Shown here piece after piece: positions 14,250 to 41,368 of a stretch of DNA of 45,038 nt. This stretch comes from Oscillospiraceae bacterium (lineage in GTDB: Bacteria > Bacillota > Clostridia > Oscillospirales > Oscillospiraceae). The DNA lies in assembly GCA_017624715.1 (NCBI GenBank), contig JAGAMN010000031.1, positions 1-45,038 of the forward strand. The letters run 5' to 3'. A program made the position numbers and the translations under genes. The notes under the pieces were generated by a model. The model saw only the letters and a program-made list of their open reading frames with translations. It had not been told where the DNA came from and did no database searches. Position 1 is the stretch's first letter, and every line of letters begins with the position of its first letter.

Positions 14250-14282
14250 TCGGTAGTTAGCTGAATAATTCCCAATACAAAG

Positions 14283-24037: not shown

Positions 24038-24038
24038 G

Positions 24039-24848: not shown

Positions 24849-24856
24849 GAGGCACC

Positions 24857-26448: not shown

Positions 26449-26449
26449 A

Positions 26450-27889: not shown

Positions 27890-27921
27890 GGTTTCAAGTC
27901 CTTTCCAAATTATGTAAAATT

Positions 27922-27981
27922 AAAAAAGAGAAACGCAAAAGGAAGACATCTATTTCAATGTCCTTCTTTTCCGTTTCTCTT
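27922..27981 (-). terminator. Leader attenuator, predicted target of GlpP
   Basis: On the minus strand AAGAGAAACGGAAAAGAAGG... pairs with its complement across an 8-base loop (arms 27958-27981 and 27926-27949, 24 positions with three mismatches), followed by a run of T residues (27922-27927). It lies between glpP and glpA, 32 bases before the glpA start. GlpP is known to bind such leaders in the presence of glycerol-3-phosphate and allow read-through. Confidence 0.8.
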
Positions 27982-28007
27982 AATCTCCAACGGTAATTAT
28001 TTGGTTA

Positions 28008-28568
28008 TTACAGTTCCCACAAGTGGGGAGAGCCAGTGGAAATGGCGGTGGCGCCGCTGCTTAGTGCGGCGGTGATCTCCGCCTTGGTCTCAATGAGACC
28101 GCCGGCAATGACGGGTATGGAGCCTGAAGAAAAACGGCGAATGGCCTTGGGCAGTACGCCGGGCATGATCTCCATAAAGTGAGGGTTGGTGTTTTTCAGC
28201 ATTTCGTGAATGCTGTCCAAGCCCTGAGAATCCAGAGCGAAGAAACGCTGGATGGTCAGCAGACCCAAATCCTTGGCAGACCGGATGATCTGGGCTTTGG
28301 TGCTTAAGATGCCGTCCACACCACAGTTTGCCAAATACTGCAAGCCTGTTTTGTCACGGCCGATGCCTTCGGCCAAGTCCATGTGGACAAAAATAGCCTT
28401 ACCGGCATCGTGGGCCTGGGTAACCTTTTGCGCCACGGTCAGCAGGTCCGTTTCCAAACAGAAGAGAACCTCTGCCGGAGATTGCAGGGCGGTTTTCCAG
28501 GTGCTTTCCCGGACAGCGGCAATAATGGGGCAGTCTTCCAGTCGGTTTATCAGTTCACTGGCGCGCAT
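28008..28568 (-). CDS. glpP: Glycerol-3-phosphate responsive antiterminator GlpP
   Basis: A 186-residue TIM-barrel-like RNA-binding regulator. Family marks include CPIIAAVRE, VHMDLAEGIGRDKTG, VDGILSTKAQIIRSA, QRFFALDSQGLDSI, EIMPGV and PVIAGGLIETKAEI, which form the glycerol-3-phosphate pocket. When bound to ligand, GlpP binds leader RNA and prevents termination of glp genes. The ATG at 28568 follows AGGAGTGG; the upstream codons at 28589 precede that site. It is transcribed from a consensus promoter and sits directly before the attenuated glpA operon, so it may also regulate in cis. Confidence 0.95.
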   Translation of the reverse strand: MRASELINRLEDCPIIAAVRESTWKTALQSPAEVLFCLETDLLTVAQKVTQAHDAGKAIFVHMDLAEGIGRDKTGLQYLANCGVDGILSTKAQIIRSAKDLGLLTIQRFFALDSQGLDSIHEMLKNTNPHFMEIMPGVLPKAIRRFSSGSIPVIAGGLIETKAEITAALSSGATAISTGSPHLWEL

Positions 28569-28597
28569 AAGACCACTCCTATCCATCATATAAAATG

Positions 28598-28626
28598 ATT
28601 TTACTGCATTTACAGGGGATTGTCAA
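28598..28626 (-). promoter_or_regulatory. Promoter of glpP
   Basis: Minus strand TTGACA (28621-28626), 17-bp spacer, TAAAAT (28598-28603). Confidence 0.85.
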
Positions 28627-28642
28627 GGAAGAATTCGGATAA

Positions 28643-28675
28643 AACAAGGGCAGATGCATTGCATCTGCCCTTGTT
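28643..28675 (-). terminator. Terminator of the Hdr-Flx-fumarate operon
   Basis: AACAAGGGCAGATGC-ATT-GCATCTGCCCTTGTT, a perfect 15-bp stem; on the minus strand it is followed by TTATCC. It begins about six bases after the last gene and immediately precedes the glpP promoter. Confidence 0.85.
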
Positions 28676-28680
28676 ATGTA

Positions 28681-29001
28681 TCAGTTGGCAGCGGCTTCCC
28701 GTTCCTTATCCAGCTTTACATTGCGGAAGTAAAGAATCATATCAATGGTGATCTCGATAAAGTTCAGGAAATAGAAGGCCCAGGCCAGGAAGAAGATAAA
28801 GCCGGTGCTGCCGTTGGCGAACTTGATGAAATTCTTGGCGATACCGAAAATATAACCGATCCAAATAAAAATCTCAAACTGCAGGGATTTGCCCTTGGCG
28901 GTGCGGGATTTCCAGGACTTGTATACGGACAGGGGCCAGCTCAAACCGAAGCAGACGATCATAACGGCTTCGCAAATTTCAGCGATCATTTCAGGATTCA
29001 T
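28681..29001 (-). CDS. Small three-helix PQ-loop-like membrane protein
   Basis: A 106-residue protein with three predicted transmembrane helices (about 5-22, 41-60, 68-92). The first loop, SWPLSVYKSWKSRTAKGKSL, resembles the PQ-loop of SemiSWEET-type half transporters. Function unknown. It is the last gene of the twelve-gene operon, two bases after the fumarase beta gene, so a link to C4-dicarboxylate handling or to anchoring the redox complex at the membrane is possible (inference). Confidence 0.8.
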   Translation of the reverse strand: MNPEMIAEICEAVMIVCFGLSWPLSVYKSWKSRTAKGKSLQFEIFIWIGYIFGIAKNFIKFANGSTGFIFFLAWAFYFLNFIEITIDMILYFRNVKLDKEREAAAN

Positions 29002-29003
29002 AA

Positions 29004-29573
29004 TTACAGTCCTCTCTTATTTTGTTTGGCCAGATATTCCGCGCGGCCGGTTTCATACAGGTTATTGCCCTCGCTGTCGATGATGACCACCAAAGGCATA
29101 TCCTCCACATAGAGCTTGCGCAGAGCTTCTGCGCCCAGGTCTTCATAGGCGATGAGCTCGCACTTTTTGATGCACTTGGCCAGCAGTGCACCGGCGCCGC
29201 CGATAGCACCGAAATACACGCCGCTGTGCTTTTTCATGGCTTCCACGACCTCGGGCAGTCTTGCACCCTTGCCGATCATACCACGAGCACCAACGGACAT
29301 CATGGTGGGGGCGTAGGCATCCATACGGCCGGAGGTGGTAGGACCGGCAGAGCCGATGACCTGGCCGGGCTTGGCAGGGGTGGGACCTACATAGTAGATG
29401 GTGGCGTCGGTAGGGTCAAAGGGCAGTTCCTCGCCCCGGGCCAAAGCCTCGCACATCCGCTTATGGCCGGCATCCCGGGAGGTGTAGATGGTGCCGGTGA
29501 GCAGGACACTGTCGCCGGCATTGAGGGTCTTCGCCAGTTCCTCGGTCAGAGGGAGGGTGATTCTCTTTTCCAT
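29004..29573 (-). CDS. fumB: Fumarate hydratase class I, beta subunit
   Basis: A 189-residue subunit of the oxygen-sensitive [4Fe-4S] fumarase, matching the C-terminal half of one-chain enzymes. GSAGPTTSGRMDAYAP and MIGKGARLP are the substrate-binding family motifs; EDLGAEALRKLYVED is near the C-terminus. Start follows the alpha stop directly. Tartrate dehydratase TtdB is a close relative; context with fumarate reductase favours fumarase. The symbol refers to the beta subunit, not to E. coli FumB. Confidence 0.9.
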   Translation of the reverse strand: MEKRITLPLTEELAKTLNAGDSVLLTGTIYTSRDAGHKRMCEALARGEELPFDPTDATIYYVGPTPAKPGQVIGSAGPTTSGRMDAYAPTMMSVGARGMIGKGARLPEVVEAMKKHSGVYFGAIGGAGALLAKCIKKCELIAYEDLGAEALRKLYVEDMPLVVIIDSEGNNLYETGRAEYLAKQNKRGL

Positions 29574-30416
29574 TTACAGCACCTCCGTCTTATGCCGGGT
29601 CACATGGCAGTTGATGTTGATGGCGCAGGGCATACCGGCAATGTGGGTGGGCAGGGTTTCGATGTTCAGGCCGATAGCGGTGGTTTTGCCGCCGAAGCCC
29701 TGAGGGCCGATGCCCAGAGCATTGACCTTCTCCAGCATCTCGTCTTCCAGCTCTGCGTAAAAAGGATCGGGATGGTGGGTATCCAGGGGGCGCATGATGG
29801 CCTTCTTGGCAAGGAGCGCTGCCTTGTCGAAAGTGCCGCCGATGCCCACGCCGATGACCATGGGAGGACAGGGGTTAGGGCCGGCATTTTCCACCGTTTC
29901 CAGAATAAAATCCTTGATGCCCTGGAGGCCTGCAGAGGGTTTGAACATCCGGATGGCGCTCATGTTCTCACTGCCAAAGCCCTTGGGGCCCACGGTGATC
30001 TTTACCTGGTCACCGGGGACAATTTCGGTGTAGAGCATAGCAGGGGTATTGTCGCCGGTGTTGCCACGGCGGACAGGGTCGCCCACCACGGACTTGCGAA
30101 GGTAGCCCTTGTCATAGCCACGGCGGACGCCTTCATCCACAGCCAGCCGTAGGTCACCGCCCACAAAGTGGACATCCTGGCCAATCTCCAGGAATACGCA
30201 GGCCATACCGGTATCCTGGCAGATGGGAACATTCTCCCGGTCGGCAATATTGTAGTTTTCGATGATATTGTCCAGCACACCCTTGGCGATTTCGCCGTCC
30301 TCGCAGGCGCGGCAGCGCTCGATGGCGCATTTTACATCGCCGGGCAGGTGGTTGTTGGCTTCAATGCACAGCCGTTCCACCACATCAGTGATCCGGCTGA
30401 CTTCAATTTCTCTCAT
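29574..30416 (-). CDS. fumA: Fumarate hydratase class I, alpha subunit
   Basis: A 280-residue subunit carrying the [4Fe-4S] cluster that catalyses malate/fumarate interconversion. Likely cluster ligands are in PICQDTGMACVF (Cys), NPCPPMVIGVGIGG (Cys) and INCHVTRHKTEVL (Cys). RRGNTGDNTPAM is another family motif. It abuts the beta gene without a gap and follows the fumarate reductase flavoprotein by six bases, suggesting that malate is dehydrated for immediate reduction. The tartrate dehydratase alternative applies to it too. Confidence 0.92.
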   Translation of the reverse strand: MREIEVSRITDVVERLCIEANNHLPGDVKCAIERCRACEDGEIAKGVLDNIIENYNIADRENVPICQDTGMACVFLEIGQDVHFVGGDLRLAVDEGVRRGYDKGYLRKSVVGDPVRRGNTGDNTPAMLYTEIVPGDQVKITVGPKGFGSENMSAIRMFKPSAGLQGIKDFILETVENAGPNPCPPMVIGVGIGGTFDKAALLAKKAIMRPLDTHHPDPFYAELEDEMLEKVNALGIGPQGFGGKTTAIGLNIETLPTHIAGMPCAININCHVTRHKTEVL

Positions 30417-30422
30417 GGCTTA

Positions 30423-32021
30423 TTACCTCTCGTGGCGGGCGTACTTGGGCAGCAGCAGGGGGGATACGCCCTCTTCTGCACAGCCGGCTTCCTTCAGCAT
30501 CTCGGCGTAGGCGTAGATGTGATCCAGGTTGGGAGTGCCCAGTTCTACTTCCTTGGCCTTGGCAGCAGCAGCCTTACCGGCGTTGCGGCCGAAGACGATA
30601 ATGTCCAGCAAAGAGTTGCCCATCAGTCGGTTACGGCCATGAATACCGCCGACGGCTTCGCCGGCAACCAGCAGGTTGGGGATAGCCTTGGTAAAGCCCT
30701 CACCGCCGATTTCCAGGCCGCCGTTCTGATAGTGCAGCGTGGGGTAGACCAAAATGGGAACTTTTCTCATATCAATGCCATAGTTCAGGTACATACGCAG
30801 CATGGCGGGGATGCGCTTTTCGATGGTGCCTTCGCCATGGATCATTTCGATCATGGGCGTATCCAGCCAAACGCCGCTGCCCAAGGGGGTATCCACGCCC
30901 TTGCCGTTGGCACATTCACGAATGATGGCAGATGCGGAAACATCTCTCGTTTCCAGAGGATGTGCATAAGCCTCGCCATCCTTGTTGACCAGCATAGCAC
31001 CGATGGAACGGACCTTTTCGGTAACCAGCGCGCCAAAGATCTGGCTGGGATAAGCAACACCGGTGGGGTGGTACTGGATGGTATCCTGATACAGCAGAGG
31101 CGCGCCGGCGCGGTAGCCCAGAATCAGGCCGTCGGCGGTGGCACCGTAGTGGTTGGAGGTGGGGAAGTTCTGATAGTGCAGACGGCCTGCACCGCCGGTG
31201 GCGATGATGACAGTCTTTGCTTTGGCAACCAGGTAGTCACCGGTTTCCATGTTCAGCAGCACAGCGCCGGCAACCTGGCCCTTTTCGTCCTTTAAAAGTT
31301 CCACAGCGGAGGTAAATTCCACAACGGGAATCTTCCGGTTCAGCACCTCGTCACGGACGGTACGCATGATCTCTGCGCCGGAGTAGTCCTTGCAGGCGTG
31401 CATACGCTTCCGGGAAGTGCCGCCGCCGTGGGTGGTGACCATCCGGCCGTCCTCGTCCTTGTCGAACATGACGCCCAGCTTGTTCAGCCAGCGAATGGCA
31501 TCGGGGGCTTCCATAACCAGCCGCCGCAGCAGCTCGGGACGTGCAGCGAAGTGACCGCCGCCGAAAGCGTCCAGATAATGCTGAACGGGAGAATCGTTTT
31601 CCTTATCGGCAGCCTGGATGCCGCCCTCGGCCATCATGGTGTTGGCATCGCCAATACGCAGCTTGGTGACCACCATGACATTGGCACCGGCTTCGTGGGC
31701 CTCAATGGCAGCCGAAGCGCCTGCGCCGCCACCGCCGATGACCAGGACGTCCACATCGTAGTCGATCTTGGTCAGGTCGATATTTTCGTTCAGCAGACGG
31801 CTGTTGGAGTGGATCAGGTCGGTCAGCTCCACAGGGGCTTTCTGACCCTTGTTGGGGCCGATTTTGATTTCCTTAAAGCCTTCGGGGCGATAGTCCGGGT
31901 GGTAGGCTTTCAGCAGCTCGCTCTTTTCCTCAGCGGTCATGCGGCGGGGTTCCGTGCCCATGCGCTCGGCACGGGTGGCCTCTACCTTCTTAATGGATTC
32001 CAGCATAGATTCCGTAAACAT
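30423..32021 (-). CDS. Soluble fumarate reductase-type flavoprotein (FrdA/TfrA-like)
   Basis: A 532-residue flavoprotein of the succinate dehydrogenase/fumarate reductase family. An N-terminal extension of about 85 residues precedes the FAD fold VLVIGGGGAGASAAIEAHEA. Active-site motifs: MMAEGGIQAA, QYHPTG, the proton-donor Arg region ETRDVSASAIIREC, and GGIHGRNRLMGNSLLD. The His that covalently holds FAD in membrane enzymes (RSHT in E. coli) is Asn here (GDANTMMAEGG), so FAD is probably bound non-covalently. With no membrane anchor genes present it is likely cytoplasmic, like thiol:fumarate reductase TfrA. It lies 12 bases after the iron-sulfur gene. Confidence 0.85.
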   Translation of the reverse strand: MFTESMLESIKKVEATRAERMGTEPRRMTAEEKSELLKAYHPDYRPEGFKEIKIGPNKGQKAPVELTDLIHSNSRLLNENIDLTKIDYDVDVLVIGGGGAGASAAIEAHEAGANVMVVTKLRIGDANTMMAEGGIQAADKENDSPVQHYLDAFGGGHFAARPELLRRLVMEAPDAIRWLNKLGVMFDKDEDGRMVTTHGGGTSRKRMHACKDYSGAEIMRTVRDEVLNRKIPVVEFTSAVELLKDEKGQVAGAVLLNMETGDYLVAKAKTVIIATGGAGRLHYQNFPTSNHYGATADGLILGYRAGAPLLYQDTIQYHPTGVAYPSQIFGALVTEKVRSIGAMLVNKDGEAYAHPLETRDVSASAIIRECANGKGVDTPLGSGVWLDTPMIEMIHGEGTIEKRIPAMLRMYLNYGIDMRKVPILVYPTLHYQNGGLEIGGEGFTKAIPNLLVAGEAVGGIHGRNRLMGNSLLDIIVFGRNAGKAAAAKAKEVELGTPNLDHIYAYAEMLKEAGCAEEGVSPLLLPKYARHER

Positions 32022-32033
32022 AGTAACCCCTCC

Positions 32034-32717
32034 TTACTTTTCGATATCCCGGTGGTTGTACAGCTCCTGCATCTCGGAGATGGGCTTTTGCATAATGGCT
32101 TCGATCAGCTCGTCATATGCGCCGGAGTTGATCTCGGCCACCCGGTTCTCCAGATGTTCAGACTTGGGAGCAATATACTTGCCGGTGAGGCGGCGAGCCA
32201 ACAGGCCCACCATGGGGTGGCTGATACCGGCGGGGCAGCGGACGGAGCAGCAGCCGCAACCGACGCAGTCGAAGCTTTCTTCCGCGCACTTTTCGAATTC
32301 GCCGCGCTGAGCGTAGGCAATGTACTGCATGACATTCAGGCTCTGGGTGCAGGCCTTGGTGCAGGCATTGCAGCCGATGCAGGCATAAATTTCGGGGTAC
32401 AGCTCCATCATCACCCGCTGATCGGCCTTCAGACCCTCAATGTCATAGGTCCGCTTGTCGGTGGGGAAGAAGGGGATGGAAGCCACATACATACCCTCCT
32501 GAACCTGGGTCTGGCAGGCCAGGCAGGTTTTCAGTTCATTGCTGCCCTTGATGCGGTAGATGGTGGCGCAAGCACCGCAGAAGCCGTGGCGGCAGCCGCA
32601 GCCCCGGGTGAGGGTATAACCGGCATATTCCATGGCGGTCATGATGGTCAGATCGCCGGGTACGGAATATCTTTTGCCGAAAAAGTAGACATTTACCATA
32701 TTTTCCATAATTGGCAT
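32034..32717 (-). CDS. Fumarate reductase-type iron-sulfur subunit (TfrB-like N-terminal part)
   Basis: A 227-residue electron carrier. The N-terminal plant-type [2Fe-2S] domain is marked by GCGCRHGFCGAC and LKTCLACQ; two C-terminal 4Fe-4S sets are CIGCNACTKACTQ and CVGCGCCSVRCPAG. It resembles the first two-thirds of TfrB but lacks the CCG (HdrB-like) domains of that protein; an HdrB is encoded separately in the same operon. The start is ambiguous: AAGGAGG lies 3 bases before ATG 32717 and 12 before ATG 32708. It should connect the flavoprotein to the Hdr/Flx proteins. Confidence 0.85.
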   Translation of the reverse strand: MPIMENMVNVYFFGKRYSVPGDLTIMTAMEYAGYTLTRGCGCRHGFCGACATIYRIKGSNELKTCLACQTQVQEGMYVASIPFFPTDKRTYDIEGLKADQRVMMELYPEIYACIGCNACTKACTQSLNVMQYIAYAQRGEFEKCAEESFDCVGCGCCSVRCPAGISHPMVGLLARRLTGKYIAPKSEHLENRVAEINSGAYDELIEAIMQKPISEMQELYNHRDIEK

Positions 32718-32725
32718 CGTCCTCC

Positions 32726-33583
32726 TTAGTATTCGTTGGGAAGTTCGTCGATTTCGTCGAAGCGGAACACCGGGCCGTCCTTGCAGACGTACTTAGTGCC
32801 GATGTTGCAGCGGCCGCATTTGCCAACGCCGCACTTCATCCGCAGTTCCAGGGTGGTGTAGACCTGCTCATTGCTAAAGCCCAGTTCCTTCAGGCCTTGC
32901 AGGCAGAATTTGATCATGATGGGAGGTCCGCAGAGCAGAGCCACCTTATTGGTGTCGAAATTCAGCTCCTTCAAATAGCTGGGGACAAAGCCAACATGGC
33001 CGTCCCAGCCTTCCTGCTCCCGGTCGATGGTCAGGTGCACATTGACACCGGGGGCCTTGGACCAGACTTCCTCGATCTCCTTGCGCTGCACCAGGTCGTC
33101 GGCGCTGCGAGAGCCATAGAGAATATCCACGGTGCCGTAGTTTTCCCGATTGTCCAGCACATAGTTGATAACGCTACGCAGGGGCGCAAGGCCGATGCCG
33201 CCGGCGATGAACAAAAGATTTTGTCCCTTCAGGGCGGTTTCCACCGGGAAGTGGTTGCCGTAAGGGCCGCGGACCAGAATTTCATCGCCTACCTGCAGGG
33301 TGTGCAGCTGATCGGTCAGCTGGCCGCAGCGCTTGATGGAGAATTCCTGATACTCTTTGTTGGTGGGGGAGGAGGTGATGGAGAACATGGCCTCGCTGAC
33401 ACCGGGCAGGCACACCATAGCGCACTGGCCGGGCATATGCTCAAAGAGCTTGCCGCCACCGGGGGCATTGACCCGAAAGGTCTTGACATCGGGGGTTTCC
33501 TCCCGGATGTCGGTAATGATGCCAACCTGAGGAATCAGGGTGTCCCGCATATAGCCGGGATTACAAGTACATTCGTGCATCAT
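32726..33583 (-). CDS. flxA: FlxA-like NAD(H)-FAD oxidoreductase subunit
   Basis: A 285-residue ferredoxin-NADP reductase-type flavoprotein: FAD-binding barrel with MFSITSS and PFGN-type loop (RGPYGNHFP), NAD-binding domain (GGIGLAPLRSVINY; LLCGPPIMIKF), and C-terminal [2Fe-2S] cysteines CGVGKCGRCNIG ... CKDG. The same family contains dihydroorotate dehydrogenase PyrK, sulfite reductase AsrB and sulfhydrogenase gamma; the three neighbours identify it as FlxA, the NADH entry point of FlxABCD-HdrABC. ATG overlaps the preceding gene by four bases. Confidence 0.85.
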   Translation of the reverse strand: MMHECTCNPGYMRDTLIPQVGIITDIREETPDVKTFRVNAPGGGKLFEHMPGQCAMVCLPGVSEAMFSITSSPTNKEYQEFSIKRCGQLTDQLHTLQVGDEILVRGPYGNHFPVETALKGQNLLFIAGGIGLAPLRSVINYVLDNRENYGTVDILYGSRSADDLVQRKEIEEVWSKAPGVNVHLTIDREQEGWDGHVGFVPSYLKELNFDTNKVALLCGPPIMIKFCLQGLKELGFSNEQVYTTLELRMKCGVGKCGRCNIGTKYVCKDGPVFRFDEIDELPNEY

Positions 33584-34605
33584 TTACCCTCCTTTTCGAA
33601 GGCCTTGATGACCTTGACGATGTTTAAGTGAGTGGGGCATTTATCCACGCACCGGCCGCAGCCAACGCAGGAGAACATACCACCGTTGTTGGCAGGGAAG
33701 TAGGCCAGCTTATGCATAAAGCGCTGGCGGAACCGCTGCATCTGGCTGGTACGGTTGTTTCCGTGGGCCATCATGGTAAAGTCGGAGTACATACAGCTGT
33801 CCCAGCAGCGAAGCCGCTGAACGCCAGAGCCGGTATTGTAGTCCTTAATGTCGTAGCACTGGCAGGTGGGGCACACAAAGGTGCAGGTGCCACAGGCCAG
33901 GCAGGGCTTATACAGCTGCTCCCACAGGGGAGAGTCGAACTTGGTCTTGGCGGCTTCCGCACCCCAGCCGTCCAGGGACAGGTCCTTCAGGGGGAGCTTT
34001 TCCTGGATAGCACGGATGGATGCCTTGGCTTCTTCCACGGCCTTTTCGTCAGTGCTTTCCAGCAGGGAAGATACAGCAGCGGTGAGGGCTTCGCCCTTTT
34101 CCGTCTTAGGCAGCCAGTAGAGATACTCACCTGCAAACCAGGTAGCTACGTCCCCCTCGGGGTTAGCACAGTCGATGCCGAAAGCATGGCAGAAGCAGGA
34201 GGTGTCCGGCTTGCTGCAAGCAAGGGAAACGATGGTGCCATGCTCGCGGCGGGCGGCGTAGTAGCTGTCCACCGGGTCGGACAGGAATACCTGATCCAGC
34301 ACGGCAAGGCCCCGGACATCGCAGGCCTTCATACCGAAGACCACGAAATCCTTATCTTCCAGCTCCGCAGCGGTGACGGACAGTTTGCCGTCGGTGCGGT
34401 TGCAGGAGTAGAGGTTCTCGCTCTGGGGGAAGAAGATGTCCTTACCGGAACGGACGGTCTTCAAAGTGTCCAGGTCCACATTGGCATCTTCGGACCAGGC
34501 GTCAAAATTGGTCTTACCGGCGGTGTTCACCGGCAGATACAGGTCGCCCTTGGCAGCGATGGCAGCCAGCAGGGAAGGAATGTCAGTTTTTGCAATACGG
34601 TACAT
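33580..34605 (-). CDS. flxB: FlxB-like 4Fe-4S dicluster protein (AsrA/HydB type)
   Basis: A 341-residue electron-transfer protein. The N-terminal 220 residues are the sulfite reductase A/hydrogenase beta-type domain (KACDVRGLAVLDQVFL; IVSLACSKPDTSCFC), followed by two ferredoxin motifs: CLACGTCTFVCPTCQC and CVGCGRCVDKCPTH. It overlaps flxA by four bases. In Flx systems it is one of two ferredoxin-like subunits relaying electrons from FlxA to FlxD/HdrA; the order of letters B/C among the two here is my assignment. Confidence 0.8.
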   Translation of the reverse strand: MYRIAKTDIPSLLAAIAAKGDLYLPVNTAGKTNFDAWSEDANVDLDTLKTVRSGKDIFFPQSENLYSCNRTDGKLSVTAAELEDKDFVVFGMKACDVRGLAVLDQVFLSDPVDSYYAARREHGTIVSLACSKPDTSCFCHAFGIDCANPEGDVATWFAGEYLYWLPKTEKGEALTAAVSSLLESTDEKAVEEAKASIRAIQEKLPLKDLSLDGWGAEAAKTKFDSPLWEQLYKPCLACGTCTFVCPTCQCYDIKDYNTGSGVQRLRCWDSCMYSDFTMMAHGNNRTSQMQRFRQRFMHKLAYFPANNGGMFSCVGCGRCVDKCPTHLNIVKVIKAFEKEGK

Positions 34606-34609
34606 ATCC

Positions 34610-35572
34610 TTACCCCCTTCCTACGCCGGGCTCGGCATCGTCTGCACGGAAGCTGGTCAGGGGGGCGGCAGCATCGATGTCCGCACCGGCCTGGTACTCG
34701 CCGTACAGGCTGTTGATATCCTTGATAAACTTGCGGTTAAACAGGTGCAGCGGAATACCCTGGGGGCAGACGCGGCTGCATTCACCGCAGTCGGTGCACC
34801 GGCCTGCCACATGGAAGGCGCGGATGATATGGAACATTTTTTCCTCGAAAGAGGTGGTGTTTGCTTTCTGTGCGGAGTCGAATTTGGTAGAATCGAAGAC
34901 ACACTTGCGGCAGGAGCAGGCGGGGCATACATTCCGGCAGGCGTTGCAGCGGATGCACTTGCTCAGCTCAGCCTGGAAGAAGGCAAATTTTTCCTCGGGG
35001 CTCATGGCTTCAATCTTTGCAATCTCGGCAAAGCGGTCGGCATCGCAGGTGTCAATGCTGTCGCCCAGCAGTTCGTCGTAAATCTTGTGCTCCTTGCCCT
35101 TGCAGACATGGCAGCGCTCCAGCATGGCATCCTTGTAGGCAATTTCCTTGTCGCCGTAAAGGGTGTGAACGGTGAGGGTTTCGCTGCAGTCGGGATAGCC
35201 GGCGCCGTCGACAGACAGAATGCCCTCGGCATCGATGTTTTCGATCTTCAGCTTGCCCTTGCAGCCCACACCGATGATGTAGGCCTTCTCCCGATTGATC
35301 CGATGCTCCTTGATCAGCTGGTTAAAGCTGTAAGAATCGCAGGGCTTCAGGAAAACCAGGGTCTTGCCGTCGAGCTTGGAGGCTTCGATCATGTACTTAC
35401 TGAGGTTTGCGCCGCAGAAGCCGTTGTAGATGAAATTGGCTTCCAAGTCTTCGGTAGTAGCGAAGAAGGCAGGCTCTACGTCCCAATCATTCTCGCCTTT
35501 GCGCCAACCCAGCACCCGGACGACTTCGCCGCTTTCCAGCAGGGATTTGGCTCTATGGATCAATTCTTGCAT
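34610..35572 (-). CDS. flxC: FlxC-like 4Fe-4S dicluster protein (FrhB-like N-terminus)
   Basis: A 320-residue protein. The N-terminal half resembles coenzyme F420 hydrogenase beta-type domains (FCGANLSKYMIEASKLDG; FLKPCDSYSFNQLIKEH), and the middle and end carry CIRCNACRNVCPACSCRKC and CTDCGECSRVCPQG, two cubane cluster motifs. CHVCKGKEHKIYD may bind another metal. It is four bases upstream of flxB and overlaps flxD by 13 bases. Such proteins also occur in formate dehydrogenase and hydrogenase modules, but the gene set fits FlxABCD. Confidence 0.8.
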   Translation of the reverse strand: MQELIHRAKSLLESGEVVRVLGWRKGENDWDVEPAFFATTEDLEANFIYNGFCGANLSKYMIEASKLDGKTLVFLKPCDSYSFNQLIKEHRINREKAYIIGVGCKGKLKIENIDAEGILSVDGAGYPDCSETLTVHTLYGDKEIAYKDAMLERCHVCKGKEHKIYDELLGDSIDTCDADRFAEIAKIEAMSPEEKFAFFQAELSKCIRCNACRNVCPACSCRKCVFDSTKFDSAQKANTTSFEEKMFHIIRAFHVAGRCTDCGECSRVCPQGIPLHLFNRKFIKDINSLYGEYQAGADIDAAAPLTSFRADDAEPGVGRG

Positions 35573-35997
35573 CGCAAATCCCCCAATCTTACGCTCGGTC
35601 CGAGAGACCGGACTTTTTCAACAAAGCTGTTCATGGTTTCCGAGAACTTCACGCCCTCAGCGGCGGATACCCATTCGACCCGGGTACGGCCGTTTTCTAC
35701 GCCCAGGTAGTCCAGCATGCTAAACAGCAGGGTCATCCGGCGACGGGCGTAGTAGTTGCCGGTGGAGTAGTGGCAGTCGCCGGGGTGGCAGCCGCACATG
35801 ATCACGCCGTCAGCGCCCTTTTCAAAGGCACGGAGGATGAACATGGGGTTAACACGGCAGGAGCAGGGTACCTTGATGATCTTTACGTCAGCAGGGTAAG
35901 CCAAGCGGCTGGAGCCGGCCAGGTCTGCGCCGGCGTAGCTGCACCAGTTGCAGCAGAAGGCCACAATTTTCGGTTTCCAATTTTCAGTTACCGGCAT
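35560..35997 (-). CDS. flxD: MvhD/FlxD-family [2Fe-2S] adaptor
   Basis: A 145-residue protein of the hydrogenase delta-subunit (MvhD) family, which passes electrons from an input module to HdrA. Cys motifs are FCCNWCSYAGADLAG, VPCSCRVNPMFILRAF and MCGCHPGDCHYSTGNYYARRR, all typical. The ATG at 35997 follows GGAGG; upstream codons belong to the HdrA reading overlap. It overlaps hdrA by ten bases and flxC by thirteen, so stoichiometric translation is likely. Confidence 0.92.
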   Translation of the reverse strand: MPVTENWKPKIVAFCCNWCSYAGADLAGSSRLAYPADVKIIKVPCSCRVNPMFILRAFEKGADGVIMCGCHPGDCHYSTGNYYARRRMTLLFSMLDYLGVENGRTRVEWVSAAEGVKFSETMNSFVEKVRSLGPSVRLGDLRCKN

Positions 35998-37976
35998 ATT
36001 GCATCCACCTCCGCAAGAATTTGTCTGTTCGAGAAGCCCTGCAGGTCCATGGCACCGCTGGGGCAGGTGACGGTACAAGCACCGCAGCCCTGGCACAAAG
36101 CACCGTTGACCACCGCGATACGGCGGGTCTCCCGGATGCCGTGGTCATTGACCAGCTTGTCTTCGTAGGAAATTGCACCGTAGGGGCACACATTGGCACA
36201 CTGAGAGCAGCCGTTACACAGCAGCTCGTCGGATTTTGCGGTGCAGGGGTTGGTTTTCAGTTTATCCTTAGCCAGCAGGCCGATGACCTTCACCGCTGCC
36301 GCACCGGCCTGGGCGACAGTTTCGGGAATGTCCTTGGGACCCTGGCACACACCGGACAGGAACACACCGGCGGTGGGAGATTCCACAGGCCGCAGCTTGG
36401 GGTGTGCCTCGGTGAGGAAGTTATTGGTATCGATGGAGGCGGTGAGCATGGTGGCGATTTTGCGCACATCGGCATTGGGCTCGATGGCGGTGGCCAGAAC
36501 CACCATATCTGCCTTCTTCAGGATCTGCTTGCCTTCCAACAGGTCAACGCCCTGGACCAGCAGGCTGCCGTCGGCCTGGGGAGCAACCTTGCCCACCTGA
36601 CCCTTGATGTAGTTGACACCGTAATCCTCCACAGCCCGGCGGTAGAATTCGTCGAAATTCTTACCGGGAGTACGGACATCAATGTAGAACACGGTCACGT
36701 TGGTGTCCGGGTACTTATCCCGAATCAGCATGGCGTGCTTGGCAGTGTACATGCAGCAGATCTTGGAGCAGTAGGGCTTGCCCCGATCATCAGAGCAGCG
36801 ACTGCCCACACACTGGATGAACACGATCTCCTTGGGCGCTTTGCCGTCGGACAGGCGCTCCAGGTGACCCTTGGTGGGGCCTGCGGCATTCATGATGCGC
36901 TCCAGCTCCAGGGAGGTGATCACATCCTTGCTTTCGTTGTAAGCATATTCGCCGTACTTATCCAGCTTGATGGTATCGAAACCGGTAGCCACAACAATAG
37001 CGCCGTACTTTTCGGTGACGATCTCGTCCTTCTGTGTGTAATCGATGGCACCGGCCTGGCAAAACTTTTCGCAGATGCCGCACTTGCCGGTCTTCATCTT
37101 AATGCAGTTGGCGGCATCGATGACAGGCACATTAGGAATGGCCTGAGCGAAGGGGGTGTAGATGGCACTGCGGGTGTTCAGGCCGCGGTTAAATTCGTTC
37201 AAAGGCTTCTTGGAGGGGCACTTTTCCTGGCAGATGCCGCAGCCGGTGCACTTGTCCATGTTGACATACCGGGCCTTCTTGCGGATATCTACGGTGAAGT
37301 TACCAACGAAGCCGGAAACCTTTTCCACTTCGGAATAAGTATGGATGGTGATATTTTCGTGAGCAGCAGCTTCCACCATCTTGGGGGTCAGAATACAGGC
37401 AGAGCAGTCCAGGGTGGGGAAGGTCTTATCCAGCTGGCTCATACGGCCACCGATGGAGGGGGTCTTCTCCACGATGTCTACCTTATAGCCTGCATCGGCT
37501 ATGTCCAGCGCGGTCTGGATACCGGCGATGCCGCCGCCGATGACCAGGGCCCGCTTGGTGACCAGGCTTTCGCCCTGCTGCAGCGGTGCGTTCAGGTGGA
37601 CCTTGGCAACGGCAGCACGCATCAAAATGGTAGCCTTTTCGGTGGCCTCTGCCATGTCCTTGTGGATCCAGGAGCAGTGCTCACGAATGTTGGCGATCTC
37701 CACCATGTAGGGGTTGATACCGGCTCTTTCCGCAGCCTTGCGGAAGGTGGCCTCGTGCATCCGGGGGGAGCAGGAGCAAACTACGATGCCGGTCAGGTTC
37801 TTTTCTTTGACTGCAGCGGCGATCCGGGACTGACCGGCCTCACTGCACATATAGGGATAGTCTTCTGCGTGGACGACGCCCTGCTCGCGCAGAGCCATCT
37901 CCACCACTTTCTTTACGTCTACCGTTGCGGCAATATTACTGCCGCAGTGACAGACAAAAACACCGATTCTTTGCAT
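35988..37976 (-). CDS. hdrA: HdrA, electron-bifurcating FAD subunit
   Basis: A 662-residue flavo-iron-sulfur protein. Order: N-terminal Cys-containing domain (VFVCHCGSNIAATVD; VVCSCSPRMHE), thioredoxin-reductase-like FAD domain (VIGGGIAGIQTALDIADAG; FPTLDCSACILTPKM), inserted ferredoxin with CTGCGICQEKCPSKKP and CGICEKFCQAGAI, and two C-terminal clusters CNGCSQCANVCP and CQGCGACTVTCPSG. HdrA splits electron pairs between a high- and low-potential acceptor in methanogens and several bacteria. The full cysteine set suggests an active bifurcating type. Six bases after hdrC. Confidence 0.95.
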   Translation of the reverse strand: MQRIGVFVCHCGSNIAATVDVKKVVEMALREQGVVHAEDYPYMCSEAGQSRIAAAVKEKNLTGIVVCSCSPRMHEATFRKAAERAGINPYMVEIANIREHCSWIHKDMAEATEKATILMRAAVAKVHLNAPLQQGESLVTKRALVIGGGIAGIQTALDIADAGYKVDIVEKTPSIGGRMSQLDKTFPTLDCSACILTPKMVEAAAHENITIHTYSEVEKVSGFVGNFTVDIRKKARYVNMDKCTGCGICQEKCPSKKPLNEFNRGLNTRSAIYTPFAQAIPNVPVIDAANCIKMKTGKCGICEKFCQAGAIDYTQKDEIVTEKYGAIVVATGFDTIKLDKYGEYAYNESKDVITSLELERIMNAAGPTKGHLERLSDGKAPKEIVFIQCVGSRCSDDRGKPYCSKICCMYTAKHAMLIRDKYPDTNVTVFYIDVRTPGKNFDEFYRRAVEDYGVNYIKGQVGKVAPQADGSLLVQGVDLLEGKQILKKADMVVLATAIEPNADVRKIATMLTASIDTNNFLTEAHPKLRPVESPTAGVFLSGVCQGPKDIPETVAQAGAAAVKVIGLLAKDKLKTNPCTAKSDELLCNGCSQCANVCPYGAISYEDKLVNDHGIRETRRIAVVNGALCQGCGACTVTCPSGAMDLQGFSNRQILAEVDAICR

Positions 37977-37982
37977 GGCAGT

Positions 37983-38363
37983 TTACCTCCGGTACTTTCT
38001 GAATGCGCTCATCAGCAGCTGCTGGGGTGTTTCCTCGTCCAACAGGGCTGGGATCTCATCGGGGGACAGCAATTGCTGACCGCGGCTGCGGACGAATACC
38101 TGCCGGGCGGCATCAATCAGCTGGCCGGGCTTGACACCCCGGGGGCAGCGCTCCACGCAGGCAAAGCAGCTCAGGCACTTCTCCAAAGACTTGCTCTGCA
38201 TCAGTGCTTCAATGTTCTCGTTCTGCACATAGCTGACGAACAGGTGGGGCGGAATGTCCATGTTTTCAAAATTGGGACAGGAGGCGGAGCACTTGCCGCA
38301 CTTCATGCATTTTAAGGGATTGACGCCGCTGATTTCCTTGATTTGCTGTACTTGCTTGTTCAT
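37983..38363 (-). CDS. hdrC: HdrC, 4Fe-4S electron-transfer subunit
   Basis: A 126-residue two-cluster ferredoxin-like protein connecting HdrA to HdrB. Motifs: CMKCGKCSASCPNFENMDI and CLSCFACVERCPRGV. It shares one base with the hdrB stop codon (TGATG) and is six bases ahead of hdrA. Length is about 50 residues less than HdrC of methanogens but the helices framing the clusters remain. Confidence 0.93.
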   Translation of the reverse strand: MNKQVQQIKEISGVNPLKCMKCGKCSASCPNFENMDIPPHLFVSYVQNENIEALMQSKSLEKCLSCFACVERCPRGVKPGQLIDAARQVFVRSRGQQLLSPDEIPALLDEETPQQLLMSAFRKYRR

Positions 38364-39145
38364 CAGGCATCCTCCTTTACACCCAAGGCTTCCGCCAGAA
38401 GCTCTGTGAAGTAGACAATGGGCAGCTGGCTATTCTTGGTCAGGTTAAACTTGCACAGGGGGCAGGCGGTGACCAGGCAATCGGCACCGAAGCTTTCGGC
38501 ACTGGTTGCGATCCGGTTGCACATATTGGTTGCACCCTGAGGATCTTTCAGACTGATGTAACCGCCGCAGCACTCGTTGCGGTAGGGGTAGACCACCGGC
38601 TCAGCGCCCAGGGCTCGGATAAAGTCCTCCAAAATGGTGGGATTCTCCGGATCGTCAAAGGCCATGACACCGCTGGGGCGCAGCAGCAGGCAGCCGTAAT
38701 ATGCGCCGATCTTTTTGCCGGTGAGGGGATTGACCACCTTCTTCTTTAGCTCGGCAAAGCCCACCTTGTCCCGGAGGACTTCCAGGAAGTGGAGAACCTC
38801 GGTTTCACCCTTATAGGGTTCGGCAAGGCCCATGTAGTTGTTGGCACGGGTCTGAATGTCGGGGACATTCGCCATATCGTCGTTGACCCGCTTCATCACA
38901 TGGTGGCAGGCAGAACACACGGTAACCAGGCTCTGCTGCTTTTCCTTTGCTTCGTTGAGGGCCCGGACGCAGGATAGCTTGGATGCGATCTCGTCGGTGC
39001 CCAGGGGGTATACACCGCCGCAGCACTGCCAGTTATCAAGCTCTTCAAGCACGAAACCCAGAGCCTCAGCAGAGGCTCTGGCATAACGGTCCAGATCTTT
39101 GGCTTTGGTACGCAGGGTGCAGCCGGGATAGTAGCTGTATTTCAT
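38363..39145 (-). CDS. hdrB: HdrB, CCG-domain catalytic subunit
   Basis: A 260-residue protein with two cysteine-rich CCG domains that in methanogens hold non-cubane [4Fe-4S] clusters where the CoM-S-S-CoB disulfide is reduced. First set: YYPGC, WQCCGGVYP, CSACH; second: YYGC, NECCGGYISL, ACPLCKFNL. All cysteines are present, so clusters can form. Bacteria lack CoM/CoB, so the natural acceptor must be different: another disulfide or, here, possibly the fumarate reductase. ATG at 39145 follows GGAGG. It is the first gene of the operon; no clear promoter lies between it and the upstream dehydrogenase. Confidence 0.93.
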   Translation of the reverse strand: MKYSYYPGCTLRTKAKDLDRYARASAEALGFVLEELDNWQCCGGVYPLGTDEIASKLSCVRALNEAKEKQQSLVTVCSACHHVMKRVNDDMANVPDIQTRANNYMGLAEPYKGETEVLHFLEVLRDKVGFAELKKKVVNPLTGKKIGAYYGCLLLRPSGVMAFDDPENPTILEDFIRALGAEPVVYPYRNECCGGYISLKDPQGATNMCNRIATSAESFGADCLVTACPLCKFNLTKNSQLPIVYFTELLAEALGVKEDA

Positions 39146-39202
39146 ATGGATTCCTCCATTCGATAAGAGTTCAAATTCGCAATGAGTGTGTTGTAGTCTA
39201 AG

Positions 39203-39295
39203 GCCCCCTTGCCTAAAGGGGGCTGTCTGCAAAGCAGATTGGGGGATATGTTCCTCCACCGCTTCGCGGTCCCCCTCCCTCTAGGCGAGGGAGGC
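39203..39295. repeat. Palindromic intergenic element between hdrB and the dehydrogenase
   Basis: About 93 bp of three hairpins: CCCCCTT-gcct-AAAGGGGG, an inner CCGC-ttc-GCGG, and CTCCCTC-taggc-GAGGGAG, with GGGGGCTGTC after the first stem, a feature shared with the elements at 4736 and (inverted) 43804. It lies just after the stop of the dehydrogenase gene. Confidence 0.75.
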
Positions 39296-39298
39296 ATT

Positions 39299-40240
39299 TT
39301 AAATATCCAGCTGGGCGATGACAGTCTTCAGTGCGTTGGCGCTGAGGCGCATCTTTTCCTCTTCCTCAGCTGTCAGCTTGACAGGCACTTTGCCGCGGAC
39401 ACCGTTGGGGCCGATGACGGTCATGGCACTCAGGCATACATCCTCCACGCCATATTCGCCGTGCATCAAGGAAGACACAGTGGCAAAGGAATCGTAGGCG
39501 GCGGTGAGCTTCTTCAAAATCTTCATGACGGACACGCTGACTGCATAGAAGGTAGCGCCCTTCTTGGCAATGATCTCGCCGCCGGACTTTTGGACATATT
39601 TCAGAGTGTCTTCCTTGTTCAGAGGTTCGATGCCTTTGCCTGCCATCAGTTCTTCGTACAGATCCAGGTCGCAGCCGGAAACAGAGGCCAGGGACCAGGG
39701 AATGAAGCTGGTGTCGCCGTGCTCACCGAAGACATATGCGTGGATGTTGTTCTGGGCGATCTTGAAATGGTCAGAAAGATCGTAGCGCAGACGGGAGGTA
39801 TCCAGAATGGTGCCGGAGCCCAGGATCTGGCTCTCGGGCAGACCGGAGATCTTGGTGAATACATAGGTCATTACGTCCACGGGGTTGGCAACAATGACGT
39901 ACAGCGCGTTGGGAGCGTACTTAACGATCTCAGGGGTGATGGACTTGAGGATGTTTACGTTGGTCTGAGCCAAGTCGATCCGGGTCTGGCCTGGCTTGCG
40001 GCCTACGCCGGAGGTAATGATGACGATGTCGGAGCCTGCGGCATCGGCATAGTCACCGGCGATGACGGAAATGGGCTCACGGAAGCTGGTGCCCTGGACG
40101 ATATCCATGACCTCGCCTTCGACCTTGTTCTTGTTGATGTCGATCAGAACGATCTCGGAAGCCACATCATCCAGAGAAAGGGTGTAGGCGATGGTTGCGC
40201 CGACGTTGCCGGCACCGATGACGGTAATTTTTCTGCTCAT
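39299..40240 (-). CDS. LDH/MDH-family dehydrogenase, malate specificity suspected
   Basis: A 313-residue NAD-dependent 2-hydroxyacid dehydrogenase. NAD fold VIGAGNVGATIAYTLSL; catalytic Asp/Arg region NPVDVMTYVFTK and SRLRYDLS; catalytic His in GEHGDTSFIPWS. Overall it is most like L-lactate dehydrogenase, but the mobile-loop residue equivalent to Gln102 is Arg (GVGRKPGQTRIDL where LDH has QKPGETRLDL). Gln102 to Arg is the classic change that turns LDH into malate dehydrogenase. Residues elsewhere (GATFYAV) are LDH-like, so activity must be tested. Good RBS (AGGAGG) and own promoter. It precedes the Hdr-Flx-fumarate operon on the same strand. Confidence 0.85.
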   Translation of the reverse strand: MSRKITVIGAGNVGATIAYTLSLDDVASEIVLIDINKNKVEGEVMDIVQGTSFREPISVIAGDYADAAGSDIVIITSGVGRKPGQTRIDLAQTNVNILKSITPEIVKYAPNALYVIVANPVDVMTYVFTKISGLPESQILGSGTILDTSRLRYDLSDHFKIAQNNIHAYVFGEHGDTSFIPWSLASVSGCDLDLYEELMAGKGIEPLNKEDTLKYVQKSGGEIIAKKGATFYAVSVSVMKILKKLTAAYDSFATVSSLMHGEYGVEDVCLSAMTVIGPNGVRGKVPVKLTAEEEEKMRLSANALKTVIAQLDI

Positions 40241-40317
40241 AGCGAAAACCTCCTAAATATGTGAATAGGGAATCTGTTTCGGTAGTCTGGTATCGATAAT
40301 TTTTTCTCGATAAGCAC

Positions 40318-40346
40318 ATTATACGGGATATGGGCAAAAAAATCAA
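40318..40346 (-). promoter_or_regulatory. Promoter of the LDH/MDH-family gene
   Basis: Minus strand TTGATT (40341-40346), 17-bp spacer, TATAAT (40318-40323). The 77-base leader holds a direct repeat TTATCGA (twice, 13 bp apart). No clear Rex-type site was found. Transcription may run on into hdrB. Confidence 0.8.
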
Positions 40347-40398
40347 CAGGTGAGAGCAGGAAATGATATCCAAAATCACAGCATAATTTCGCCGTGCT

Positions 40399-40415
40399 TT
40401 ATACAATATGTATAA
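40399..40415. promoter_or_regulatory. 17-bp palindrome between divergent genes
   Basis: TTATACA-ATA-TGTATAA, perfect 7-bp arms, between the promoters of the dehydrogenase and nrdG. It could be an operator for either side; no regulator can be named. Confidence 0.4.
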
Positions 40416-40433
40416 TAACAAATAAATTGTCAG

Positions 40434-40462
40434 TTGGCAATCTGCAATGGGTATGTTATAAT
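40434..40462 (+). promoter_or_regulatory. Promoter of nrdG
   Basis: TTGGCA (40434-40439), 17-bp spacer, TATAAT (40457-40462), 28 bases before the nrdG start. Confidence 0.75.
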
Positions 40463-40490
40463 AAAAAAAACGGAAGAAGGAGATATCTCC

Positions 40491-41201
40491 ATGAAGATTG
40501 TCGGATTGCAGAAAATGACCTTGCTGGATTATCCGGGCAAAGTGGCCTGCACGGTGTTTTTGGGCGGCTGTAATTTCCGCTGTCCCTTTTGCCACAACAG
40601 TGAGCTTTTGGACGGAACAGCGGAATCCGTGATGGATCAGCAGGAGCTGCTAAGCTTCCTGGAAAAGCGGAAAGGGCTTTTGGACGGTGTATGTGTCACC
40701 GGCGGTGAGCCTACCCTGCAGAAAGATCTGCCGCAACTGCTATTTGCGATAAAAGCTTTGGGCTATGCCGTGAAGCTGGATACCAACGGCTACCGACCGG
40801 AGGTTCTGAAAGAACTGGTAGGGCAGGGACTGGTGGATTATGTGGCCATGGATGTAAAGAACAGCCCCCGGCGTTATGCCGAAACTGCCGGCCTGCCGGG
40901 TCTGGATATTACCCGGATCGAGGAGAGCCTTGCCTTCCTGCTGTCCGGCGCAGTGGATTATGAGCTGCGTACGACCGTGGCCGTCCCCCTGCACGACGAT
41001 CAGGCGATGAATGAGATTCGGCAGTGGCTGGAAAAGATTTCCTCAAACCACAAAGCCCGGCGGTTTTTTATACAGCCTTTTGTGGATCGGGATACGGTGA
41101 TGTTCGCCGGCCTGAAGACACCGGAAAAGCCGGAATTAGTGGGTTTTCAAGGGGTTTTGGCGCATTGTGCCGAACAAGTGTCCATTCGTGGCAATACATA
41201 A
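40491..41201 (+). CDS. nrdG: Anaerobic ribonucleotide reductase activating protein
   Basis: A 236-residue radical SAM enzyme that makes the glycyl radical in NrdD. The cluster motif is CNFRCPFCHN (Cys-x3-Cys-x2-Cys) near residue 30, followed by the SAM-contact GGEPTL. Length and N-terminus (MKIVGLQKMTLLDYPGK) match the NrdG subfamily found in Clostridia and Thermotogae rather than the short E. coli form. ATG at 40491 follows AAGGAG; an upstream frame extension crosses the promoter. Separated from nrdD by a regulated promoter, so the two are transcribed partly independently. Confidence 0.93.
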   Translation: MKIVGLQKMTLLDYPGKVACTVFLGGCNFRCPFCHNSELLDGTAESVMDQQELLSFLEKRKGLLDGVCVTGGEPTLQKDLPQLLFAIKALGYAVKLDTNGYRPEVLKELVGQGLVDYVAMDVKNSPRRYAETAGLPGLDITRIEESLAFLLSGAVDYELRTTVAVPLHDDQAMNEIRQWLEKISSNHKARRFFIQPFVDRDTVMFAGLKTPEKPELVGFQGVLAHCAEQVSIRGNT

Positions 41202-41205
41202 TAAA

Positions 41206-41254
41206 CCACAATATATAGTGTCTAACCATAAAAAATAATCGCAATATATGGAAT
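41206..41254 (+). promoter_or_regulatory. Tandem NrdR boxes upstream of nrdD
   Basis: Two 16-bp sites with cores CAATATATAG (box 41206-41221, CCACAATATATAGTGT) and CAATATATGG (box 41239-41254) match the NrdR consensus acaCwAtATaTwgtgt; the first is close to perfect. They are 33 bp apart, about three helical turns, the normal NrdR arrangement, and lie directly before the -35. NrdR represses RNR genes when dATP is high. Confidence 0.85.
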
Positions 41255-41261
41255 TTAGTGG

Positions 41262-41290
41262 TTGACATTGGAAATAAAGAGCGGTATAAT
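41262..41290 (+). promoter_or_regulatory. Consensus promoter of nrdD
   Basis: TTGACA (41262-41267), exact 17-bp spacer, TATAAT (41285-41290): a perfect housekeeping promoter, placed just after the NrdR boxes. Confidence 0.95.
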
Positions 41291-41335
41291 ACAGGCACTG
41301 TCGCGTTTTTCAGGCTGCGACAATGCCTGTATTAT
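41286..41335 (+). promoter_or_regulatory. Long inverted repeat spanning nrdD -10 and 5' leader
   Basis: ATAATACAGGCACTGTCGC (41286-41304) and GCGACAATGCCTGTATTAT (41317-41335) pair with one mismatch around a 12-base loop. Because the arms begin in the -10, only about the inner 13 pairs would be in RNA; these form a stable 5' hairpin ahead of the ribosome binding site. It may stabilise mRNA or regulate initiation. Confidence 0.7.
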
Positions 41336-41368
41336 TTGTTGCTATATTGAAAGAGGGGAGAAACGACT

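Follow-up and report, generated by a model that had tools for sequence, protein, structure and literature searches.

A putative Hdr-Flx-fumarate reductase operon of gut Clostridia that may couple succinate formation to ferredoxin reduction

How a fumarate reductase receives its electrons when its genes are embedded in one run with those of a complete Hdr-Flx complex is the question raised by a 45,038-nucleotide stretch of an Oscillospiraceae genome (GenBank assembly GCA_017624715.1, contig JAGAMN010000031.1), here called the window, which is the entire contig C21 of its source genome (2.27 Mb, 85.9% complete). Twelve minus-strand genes succeed one another in the order hdrB-hdrC-hdrA-flxD-flxC-flxB-flxA-frdB-frdA-fumA-fumB-membrane protein, and the gene of a lactate dehydrogenase (LDH)-like enzyme lies upstream of hdrB on the same strand. 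The original prediction had described this run, its tight packing and the single terminator at its end, and each of these held: open reading frames and Pfam and NCBIfam families confirmed the identities and their order, the successive junctions between hdrB and the membrane protein gene measure -1, 6, -10, -13, 4, -4, 8, 12, 6, 0 and 2 bp (a range of -13 to +12 bp), and an intrinsic terminator with a 15-bp stem (z = -7.8), not listed by a simple terminator scan, lies on the minus strand at about 28641..28675. The observation was thus correct, the mechanism read into it is likely, and the kind of system had been proposed before. We consider it probable that FlxABCD-HdrABC-FrdBA is a soluble NADH:fumarate reductase which bifurcates electrons to ferredoxin, within a reductive C4 branch that would do without quinone; such an enzyme would entail complex formation, direct transfer from HdrB to FrdB, bifurcation, a reductive direction and a role for a transporter, all of which we infer.

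The distribution of the genes indicates that they belong together. FrdB is a sharp marker of the locus, since 12 of 150 family genomes (the window's own included) hold a match of at least 355 bits and the next listed match reaches 34.9. A scan of one genome per species returned at least 584 FrdB relatives, and the titles of the best 80 of them are mostly those of Lachnospiraceae, Oscillospiraceae and Clostridia, many from gut samples. These 80, together with 50 from the class and the family and after removal of five near-duplicates, make up 125 distinct loci (designated below by L numbers); having been chosen by FrdB similarity the best 80 are an uneven sample, and the class set of 291 genomes is more even. 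All 94 loci with sufficient flank carry a nine-gene core (hdrB, hdrC, hdrA, flxD, flxC, flxB, flxA, frdB, frdA) on one strand, and in the 31 truncated loci every gene that their flank should contain is present. A search for the fixed order, as had been suggested with the original prediction, recovered the window's arrangement in 93 of the 94, the exception being L218 with frdBA-hdrBCA-flxDCBA, and in the fetched loci, as far as their contigs extend, the cluster is unbroken. The core was also found in Blautia luti (L071) and B. wexlerae. That relatives might carry the Hdr-Flx and the fumarate genes apart proved wrong within the class, where FrdB occurs in 40 genomes, HdrA (E <= 1e-100) in 43 and both in 39 (Fisher p 1e-42), and partly right for the wider phylum, to which we return below. 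The lone class genome with FrdB only is 75% complete; two of the four with HdrA only have, respectively, a contig cut inside flxA and another gene set (L230, L231), and the other two show only partial matches within 1162-aa frames. In the 398 genomes of the wider phylum HdrA (E <= 1e-60) was found in 143 as against 39 with FrdB. Comparative genomics supports what would be a dedicated Hdr-Flx-Frd module. A mosaic origin of the operon was rejected, the low hdrB, hdrC, flxB and flxC identities in L033-L036 resembling ordinary rate differences, because the Blautia loci vary from gene to gene in much the same way.

All seven subunits of FlxABCD-HdrABC are present and contiguous (coordinates are on the minus strand unless stated otherwise): hdrB (38363..39145, 260 aa, two stretches of PF02754, i.e., two CCG domains), hdrC (37983..38363, 126 aa, a 2x[4Fe-4S] subunit with a 4Fe-4S dicluster match), hdrA (35988..37976, 662 aa, the FAD/Fe-S subunit with the putative bifurcating flavin), flxD (35560..35997, an FlpD/MvhD-type linker, PF02662, 182.6 bits), flxC (34610..35572, a 4Fe-4S protein assigned from Fer4_8, position and conservation), flxB (33580..34605, a 4Fe-4S protein with Fer4_22 and a match to the sulfhydrogenase beta subunit 9nez_B, E 2e-45) and flxA (32726..33583, an NAD(H)-binding flavoprotein with a DHODB-type cluster, PF00175, PF00970 and PF10418). 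The most likely starts of HdrB and FlxD are the ATG at 39145, which has GGAGG upstream (the longest open frame starts at 39259), and the ATG at 35997. Many HdrA homologues of the wider phylum carry one in-frame TGA, perhaps for selenocysteine; the HdrA of the window has none.

From the homology of these subunits a bifurcation driven by NADH, with fumarate and ferredoxin (Fd) as acceptors, may be drawn. Electrons would pass from NADH to the FAD of FlxA and through the Fe-S clusters of FlxB, FlxC and FlxD to the FAD of HdrA, the presumed branch point; the first would then travel over the HdrA clusters to ferredoxin, and the second over HdrC and the CCG clusters of HdrB to FrdB and finally to the FAD of FrdA, the presumed site of fumarate reduction. 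The overall reaction would be 2 NADH + fumarate + Fd(ox) -> 2 NAD+ + succinate + Fd(red, two electrons). The potentials are -320 mV for NADH, +33 mV for fumarate and about -450 mV for ferredoxin, from which a release of about 40 kJ/mol is calculated, and the bifurcated reaction is therefore feasible. It is unlikely that the enzyme is a plain, non-bifurcating NADH:fumarate reductase whose HdrA merely relays electrons. HdrA is of full length, residues 3-660 aligning end to end with the methanogen HdrA 5odc_A (E 3.4e-204); alignment and conserved cysteines show the FAD and cluster-binding Fe-S regions of bifurcating HdrA, 29 of its 32 cysteines being kept in 65 of 65 sequences, and a downhill transfer needs no complex so large. 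What speaks for a plain enzyme comes from other organisms, namely the purified MetVF-HdrABC-MvhD of Moorella, which gave no ferredoxin reduction (PMC8578096), and the energy balance of B. luti, for which one theoretical model of its authors uses a plain NADH-dependent fumarate reductase (PMC12773636).

In the bifurcating reading the second electron would reach fumarate by way of FrdB. The Fe-S subunit encoded by frdB (32034..32717, 227 aa; 2Fe-2S + 2x4Fe-4S) has weak matches to SdhB/TfrB models, and a profile search of it against PDB gave mainly ferredoxin-type matches of partial length and weak ones to SdhB. No CCG domain was found in it with Pfam and NCBIfam profiles, and across the 39 FrdB loci of the phylum its open frames span 225-320 aa against the 488 positions of TfrB; FrdBA would therefore lack a thiol-oxidising site of its own. 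FrdB, HdrC and HdrB match positions 19-180, 123-217 and 382-484 of the TfrB model, and with FrdA nearest to TfrA the set resembles methanogen TfrAB as if TfrB had been split into successive parts; it differs in that the window proteins score far below the Tfr cut-offs, FrdB is without CCG domain and an NADH/bifurcation module is added. We infer that electrons pass from HdrC-HdrB to FrdB, so that these two subunits take over the role which the CCG part has in TfrB or SdhE. Of 55 HdrB sequences selected for a tree, 43 come from FrdB genomes and 12 from Flx-Hdr clusters of FrdB-less genomes; a branch with 100/100 support separates 42 of the former from all 12 of the latter, and removal of three long-branch rows left 41 against 11, again at 100/100. 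The clade of the FrdB genomes, to which the window-type HdrB belongs, includes four HdrB that are unlinked and four of the hdrC-hdrB-frdBA type; HdrB is the likely link to FrdB because this clade of its own extends across five genomic contexts.

A rival possibility is that Flx-Hdr and FrdBA are two enzymes joined by a diffusible thiol, the one reducing a disulfide, as has been proposed for Desulfovibrio vulgaris with DsrC, and the other using the thiol in the manner of methanogen thiol:fumarate reductase. The ten CCG cysteines of HdrB, invariant in 66 of 66 sequences (as are the eight cysteines of HdrC), would suit disulfide chemistry, the nearest family of FrdA is TfrA, a transfer to ferredoxin "(and thiols)" is mentioned in PMC7282089, and DsrC is named as the likely acceptor of Flx-Hdr in D. 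vulgaris (PMC10920352). The short FrdB without CCG domain and the separate HdrB clade speak against a thiol shuttle, as do five of the 39 phylum loci in which hdrC-hdrB sits with frdBA with no hdrA or flx nearby, and we hold it to be quite improbable.

FrdA (30423..32021, 532 aa, PF00890) is a flavoprotein of the fumarate reductase type. TfrA is its nearest NCBIfam model at 337.3 bits, below the cut-off of 718 and hence short of membership, and its closest PDB relatives are SdhA/FrdA. Among 129 sequences, near-duplicates included, the motifs HPTG (124), TRDV (124), NRLMGNSLLD (123) and LHYQxGG (122) are kept, whose residues we take to be those of the fumarate/succinate active site, and what is presumably the position of the covalent-FAD His is occupied by Asn in 127, two being not readable. 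Absence of this His is linked to poor succinate oxidation, and in FrdA it favours the reductive direction. Genes of FrdC/FrdD anchors are not beside frdAB, the neighbours being flxA and fumA; this holds for the locus, the genome at large not having been searched.

The last gene of the run (28681..29001) encodes a 106-aa membrane protein without Pfam or NCBIfam match; a PQ-loop profile matched 2 of 19 homologues (best E 0.0015) and not the window protein. On the opposite strand, homologues of it occur in L083, L104 and L105 at 34-37% identity and in L186 at 58%. Those at L083:18707-19729 and L105:16672-17676 continue into a soluble region of about 230 residues that resembles a GDSL-type hydrolase. 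The content of this slot was compared across every distinct locus with a sufficient downstream flank, 90 in number: a SucE-like gene occurs in 54, a 106-aa gene in 11, a DUF1275 gene in 7 and none of the three in 20. SucE-like and 106-aa genes occur together in one of the 90 (L185, the 106-aa gene lying about 3.8 kb further on; Fisher p 3e-4), and 106-aa and DUF1275 genes likewise in one (L043). Strict mutual exclusion of SucE-like and 106-aa genes was rejected on account of L185 and of the four loci with a homologue on the opposite strand. The SucE-like protein was PF06826 in three of three tested, and a DUF1275 assignment was confirmed for a single fragment. The DNA of L032, a close relative, shows 85-90% identity over 24038-42714 except for a non-aligning segment, 28629-29038, which holds the 106-aa gene, and L032 has a SucE-like gene in its place. 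SucE of C. glutamicum is a succinate exporter of the AAEx family (PMC7419537). On account of the shared slot and of the replacement in L032 we regard the 106-aa protein as a candidate succinate (C4-dicarboxylate) exporter, so that succinate might leave through an operon-encoded transporter, this protein in the window and, in many relatives, a SucE-like protein of the AAEx family. The complex might also run in reverse, oxidising succinate with reduced ferredoxin (confurcation), as bifurcating enzymes are held to be reversible in principle; the missing His of FrdA, the SucE-like gene inside the operon of many relatives and the excretion of succinate by the carrier B. luti (PMC12773636) make this very unlikely.

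Upstream of the fumarate reductase reaction, the operon appears to encode the remainder of a reductive C4 branch of fermentation seemingly in no need of a quinone, in which malate dehydrogenase would convert oxaloacetate to malate and fumarase malate to fumarate. The dehydrogenase (mdh, 39299..40240, 313 aa, PF00056/PF02866) passes the L-lactate dehydrogenase cut-off TIGR01771 (324.6 against 303.55 bits). At LDH position 102 Gln marks a lactate and Arg a malate enzyme, and Arg was found in 78 of 78 homologues from distinct fetched loci (75 by pattern, three by eye), so that the specificity residue points to malate, as the original prediction had guessed. Automatic annotation is likely to mislead here because the enzyme passes the lactate cut-off although its Arg points to malate. 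The gap of 153 bp between mdh and hdrB contains a hairpin without T-run, and because of it co-transcription of mdh with the twelve-gene run is putative only. Class I fumarase is encoded by fumA (alpha, 29574..30416, PF05681, above the cut-off of NF004885) and fumB (beta, 29004..29573, PF05683). Among 75 wide-flank loci 67 have a fumarase, of class I behind frdA in 56 and of class II between mdh and hdrB in 11 (FumC, Pfam-verified in L182 and L219), and none has both; the two classes replace each other. An mdh lies in the expected range in 59 of the 75.

As for the host pathway, PEP carboxykinase (ATP) was found in 13 of 26 carriers, the window genome included. MenD above the cut-off was found in none of the 26, some of which are incomplete genomes, and the futalosine-type MqnA/D family in two, weakly but over the cut-off; other quinone-pathway genes were not searched. 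SdhABE and 8-methylmenaquinol:fumarate reductase likewise combine a flavoprotein and an Fe-S protein with a CCG subunit that has ten cysteines, and HdrB scores 143.8 bits with the SdhE model against 132.1 with the HdrB model, as SdhE also leads in four of six further Frd-type HdrB and trails in four of four other HdrB; at a cut-off of 500 these scores are suggestive only, and membership of HdrB in SdhE was rejected. That the window encodes such a quinol-linked enzyme, with HdrB as an SdhE-like membrane-bound subunit, is hardly credible even with these scores and with the cytochrome b561-like protein adjoining a distant frdBA in L142, given carriers without a clear quinone-pathway marker and an HdrB that is part of an Hdr-Flx set, hdrA and flx being present in every evaluable locus of the group.

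Several observations weigh against the bifurcating NADH:fumarate reductase. Sub-cut-off MenD matches, which we read as related thiamine enzymes, occur in 17 of the 26 carriers; in the tested range 8 of the 75 wide-flank loci have no fumarase and 16 no mdh; DsrC has been reported to interact with Flx-Hdr in D. vulgaris, which makes a small disulfide protein a known partner of Flx-Hdr elsewhere; and RnfC exceeds its cut-off in only 15 of the 26 carriers and was not found in the window genome (85.9% complete), because of which the use of the reduced ferredoxin would not be uniform. The remaining points come from the 39 FrdB loci of the phylum, some of which lie on short contigs. No hdrB lies near frdBA in 17 of them, some with less than 3 kb on one side, which disposes of the rule that FrdB always has HdrB and is the part of the suspected separation that stood; in the four of these 17 that were annotated in full, malic enzyme (L156), FMN-binding proteins (L148, L160) and the cytochrome b561-like protein of L142 were found near frdBA, and four of the 17 genomes (G518, G498, G333, G383) carry a separate hdrBCA-flxD-C-B(-A) cluster elsewhere (L242-L245). 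The five loci with hdrC-hdrB adjoining frdBA and no hdrA or flx in the stretch are L157, L159, L166, L171 (on a contig of only 3.8 kb) and L176, a DctM transporter gene being near in L157. FrdBA can therefore have other donors, and the HdrB of L158 groups with those of FrdB-less genomes.

The same loci suggest how such donors may vary. The full Hdr-Flx set is present in 6 of the 39 (the window and five others, four of them rearranged), and HdrA-like and FlpD genes in 10, of which eight have hdrC and hdrB; in the other two the contig ends too early to show them. A 1073-aa double HdrA-like protein of L147 (11999-15220) lies between hdrCBA and FlpD-frdBA, a possible different bifurcating input to the same fumarate reductase; spacing is similar in further loci of that family. 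A 1489-aa GltD/HdrA-like protein in L158 (11971-16440), clustered with hdrA, hdrC, hdrB, FlpD and frdBA, suggests an NADPH-linked version. A wider reading, which we hold tentatively, is that HdrC-HdrB-FrdB-FrdA is a standard fumarate-reducing head, wired through a split TfrB-like chain, with pluggable inputs and exchangeable fumarase and exporter cassettes; we hold it lower because one locus has both exporter candidates. The CCG clusters of HdrB would then pass electrons straight to FrdB with no disulfide broken. The input would be NADH-Flx bifurcation in gut Clostridia and the double-HdrA/FlpD set in one other family; a third family has no HdrA alongside. With the operon the path from oxaloacetate to succinate export would be complete and free of quinone, the 106-aa protein being one exporter cassette.

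The central idea is not new, having been proposed at least twice before (PMC7282089, PMC6315080): the claim that no characterised complex of this composition was known stood insofar as none was found in the literature, and fell short in that the proposal was already in print. The "succinate operon" of Pseudoclostridium thermosuccinogenes comprises one fumarase, seven Flx-Hdr, two fumarate reductase genes and a hypothetical gene, possibly for a succinate transporter, and was about 4-fold up when CO2 was limiting, a rise that did not reach significance for every subunit; this 2020 paper cites a 2019 preprint (10.20944/preprints201912.0288.v1) as proposing bifurcation to fumarate (PMC7282089). 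Fumarase, Flx-Hdr, fumarate reductase and a membrane protein stand in one cluster there as in the window, and the two differ, compared by the published description, in the one fumarase gene ahead of Flx-Hdr as against class I FumAB behind frdA, in the upstream mdh and in the 106-aa type of the membrane protein; the sister type mdh-fumC-hdrBCA-flxDCBA-frdBA (L182, L204) is a closer fit to the published layout. Tubeworm symbionts and Thioflavicoccus have reverse-TCA clusters in which flxABCD-hdrABC is interspersed with korABCD and tfrAB, and the authors suggest a complex of Flx-Hdr with the TfrAB-type thiol:fumarate reductase, to which electrons would be shuttled directly (2019, PMC6315080). As in the window, Flx-Hdr stands beside a thiol:fumarate-reductase-like enzyme; by description those clusters differ in belonging to carbon-fixing gammaproteobacteria and in containing a 2-oxoglutarate:ferredoxin oxidoreductase. 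The FlxABCD-HdrABC of D. vulgaris, reportedly the subject of Ramos et al. in 2015, has the same seven subunits and a proposed NADH/ferredoxin bifurcation, its second acceptor being thought, by description, to be DsrC, whereas in the window the set is linked to frdBA and a C4 branch. B. luti forms succinate and has viologen-linked fumarate reductase activity and a frdAB transcript (PMC12773636); the words Flx and Hdr are absent from the main text of that paper. The available parts of PMC2680327, PMC5861303, PMC8578096, PMC9044749, PMC9751042, PMC10504309 and PMC10920352 contain no further statement on a Flx-Hdr-fumarate reductase, and no report of an in vitro test of a bifurcating fumarate reductase was found in a literature search that mostly left out subscription journals. 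That search also found no published account of how widespread and how constant in order the locus is among gut Clostridia, of an HdrB clade tracking FrdB, or of slots in which fumarases and exporters are exchanged.

Were the proposed mechanism true, succinate formation in many Clostridia of the gut, including relatives of Blautia, Dorea and Mediterraneibacter, would be coupled to reduced ferredoxin and, where Rnf or a hydrogenase is present, further to ATP or H2; fumarate would join the terminal acceptors of Hdr-type bifurcation, and the use of fumarate by fermenters without a clear quinone pathway would be explained.

With respect to expression, a sigma-70-like promoter upstream of mdh (TTGATT-17-TATAAT, 40318..40346, minus strand) is proposed from its match to the consensus only. 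Rex control of the operon was rejected, no Rex-type site exceeding chance in the window; in L189 a Rex-like redox regulator gene (13569-14456, minus strand, PF06971 + PF02629) lies directly upstream of an mdh-fumC-hdr operon. Among the neighbouring genes, a radical-SAM gene (40434-41201) is divergent from the operon, on the strand of the anaerobic ribonucleotide reductase NrdD (41369-43750, plus strand), which has an ATP-cone and, at its C-terminus, a glutaredoxin-like stretch (PF00462, 22.7 bits, cut-off 22.9). Just downstream of the terminator, 25204-28589 (minus strand) contains genes for a glycerol-3-phosphate antiterminator and for FAD oxidoreductases, of which one has a BFD domain.

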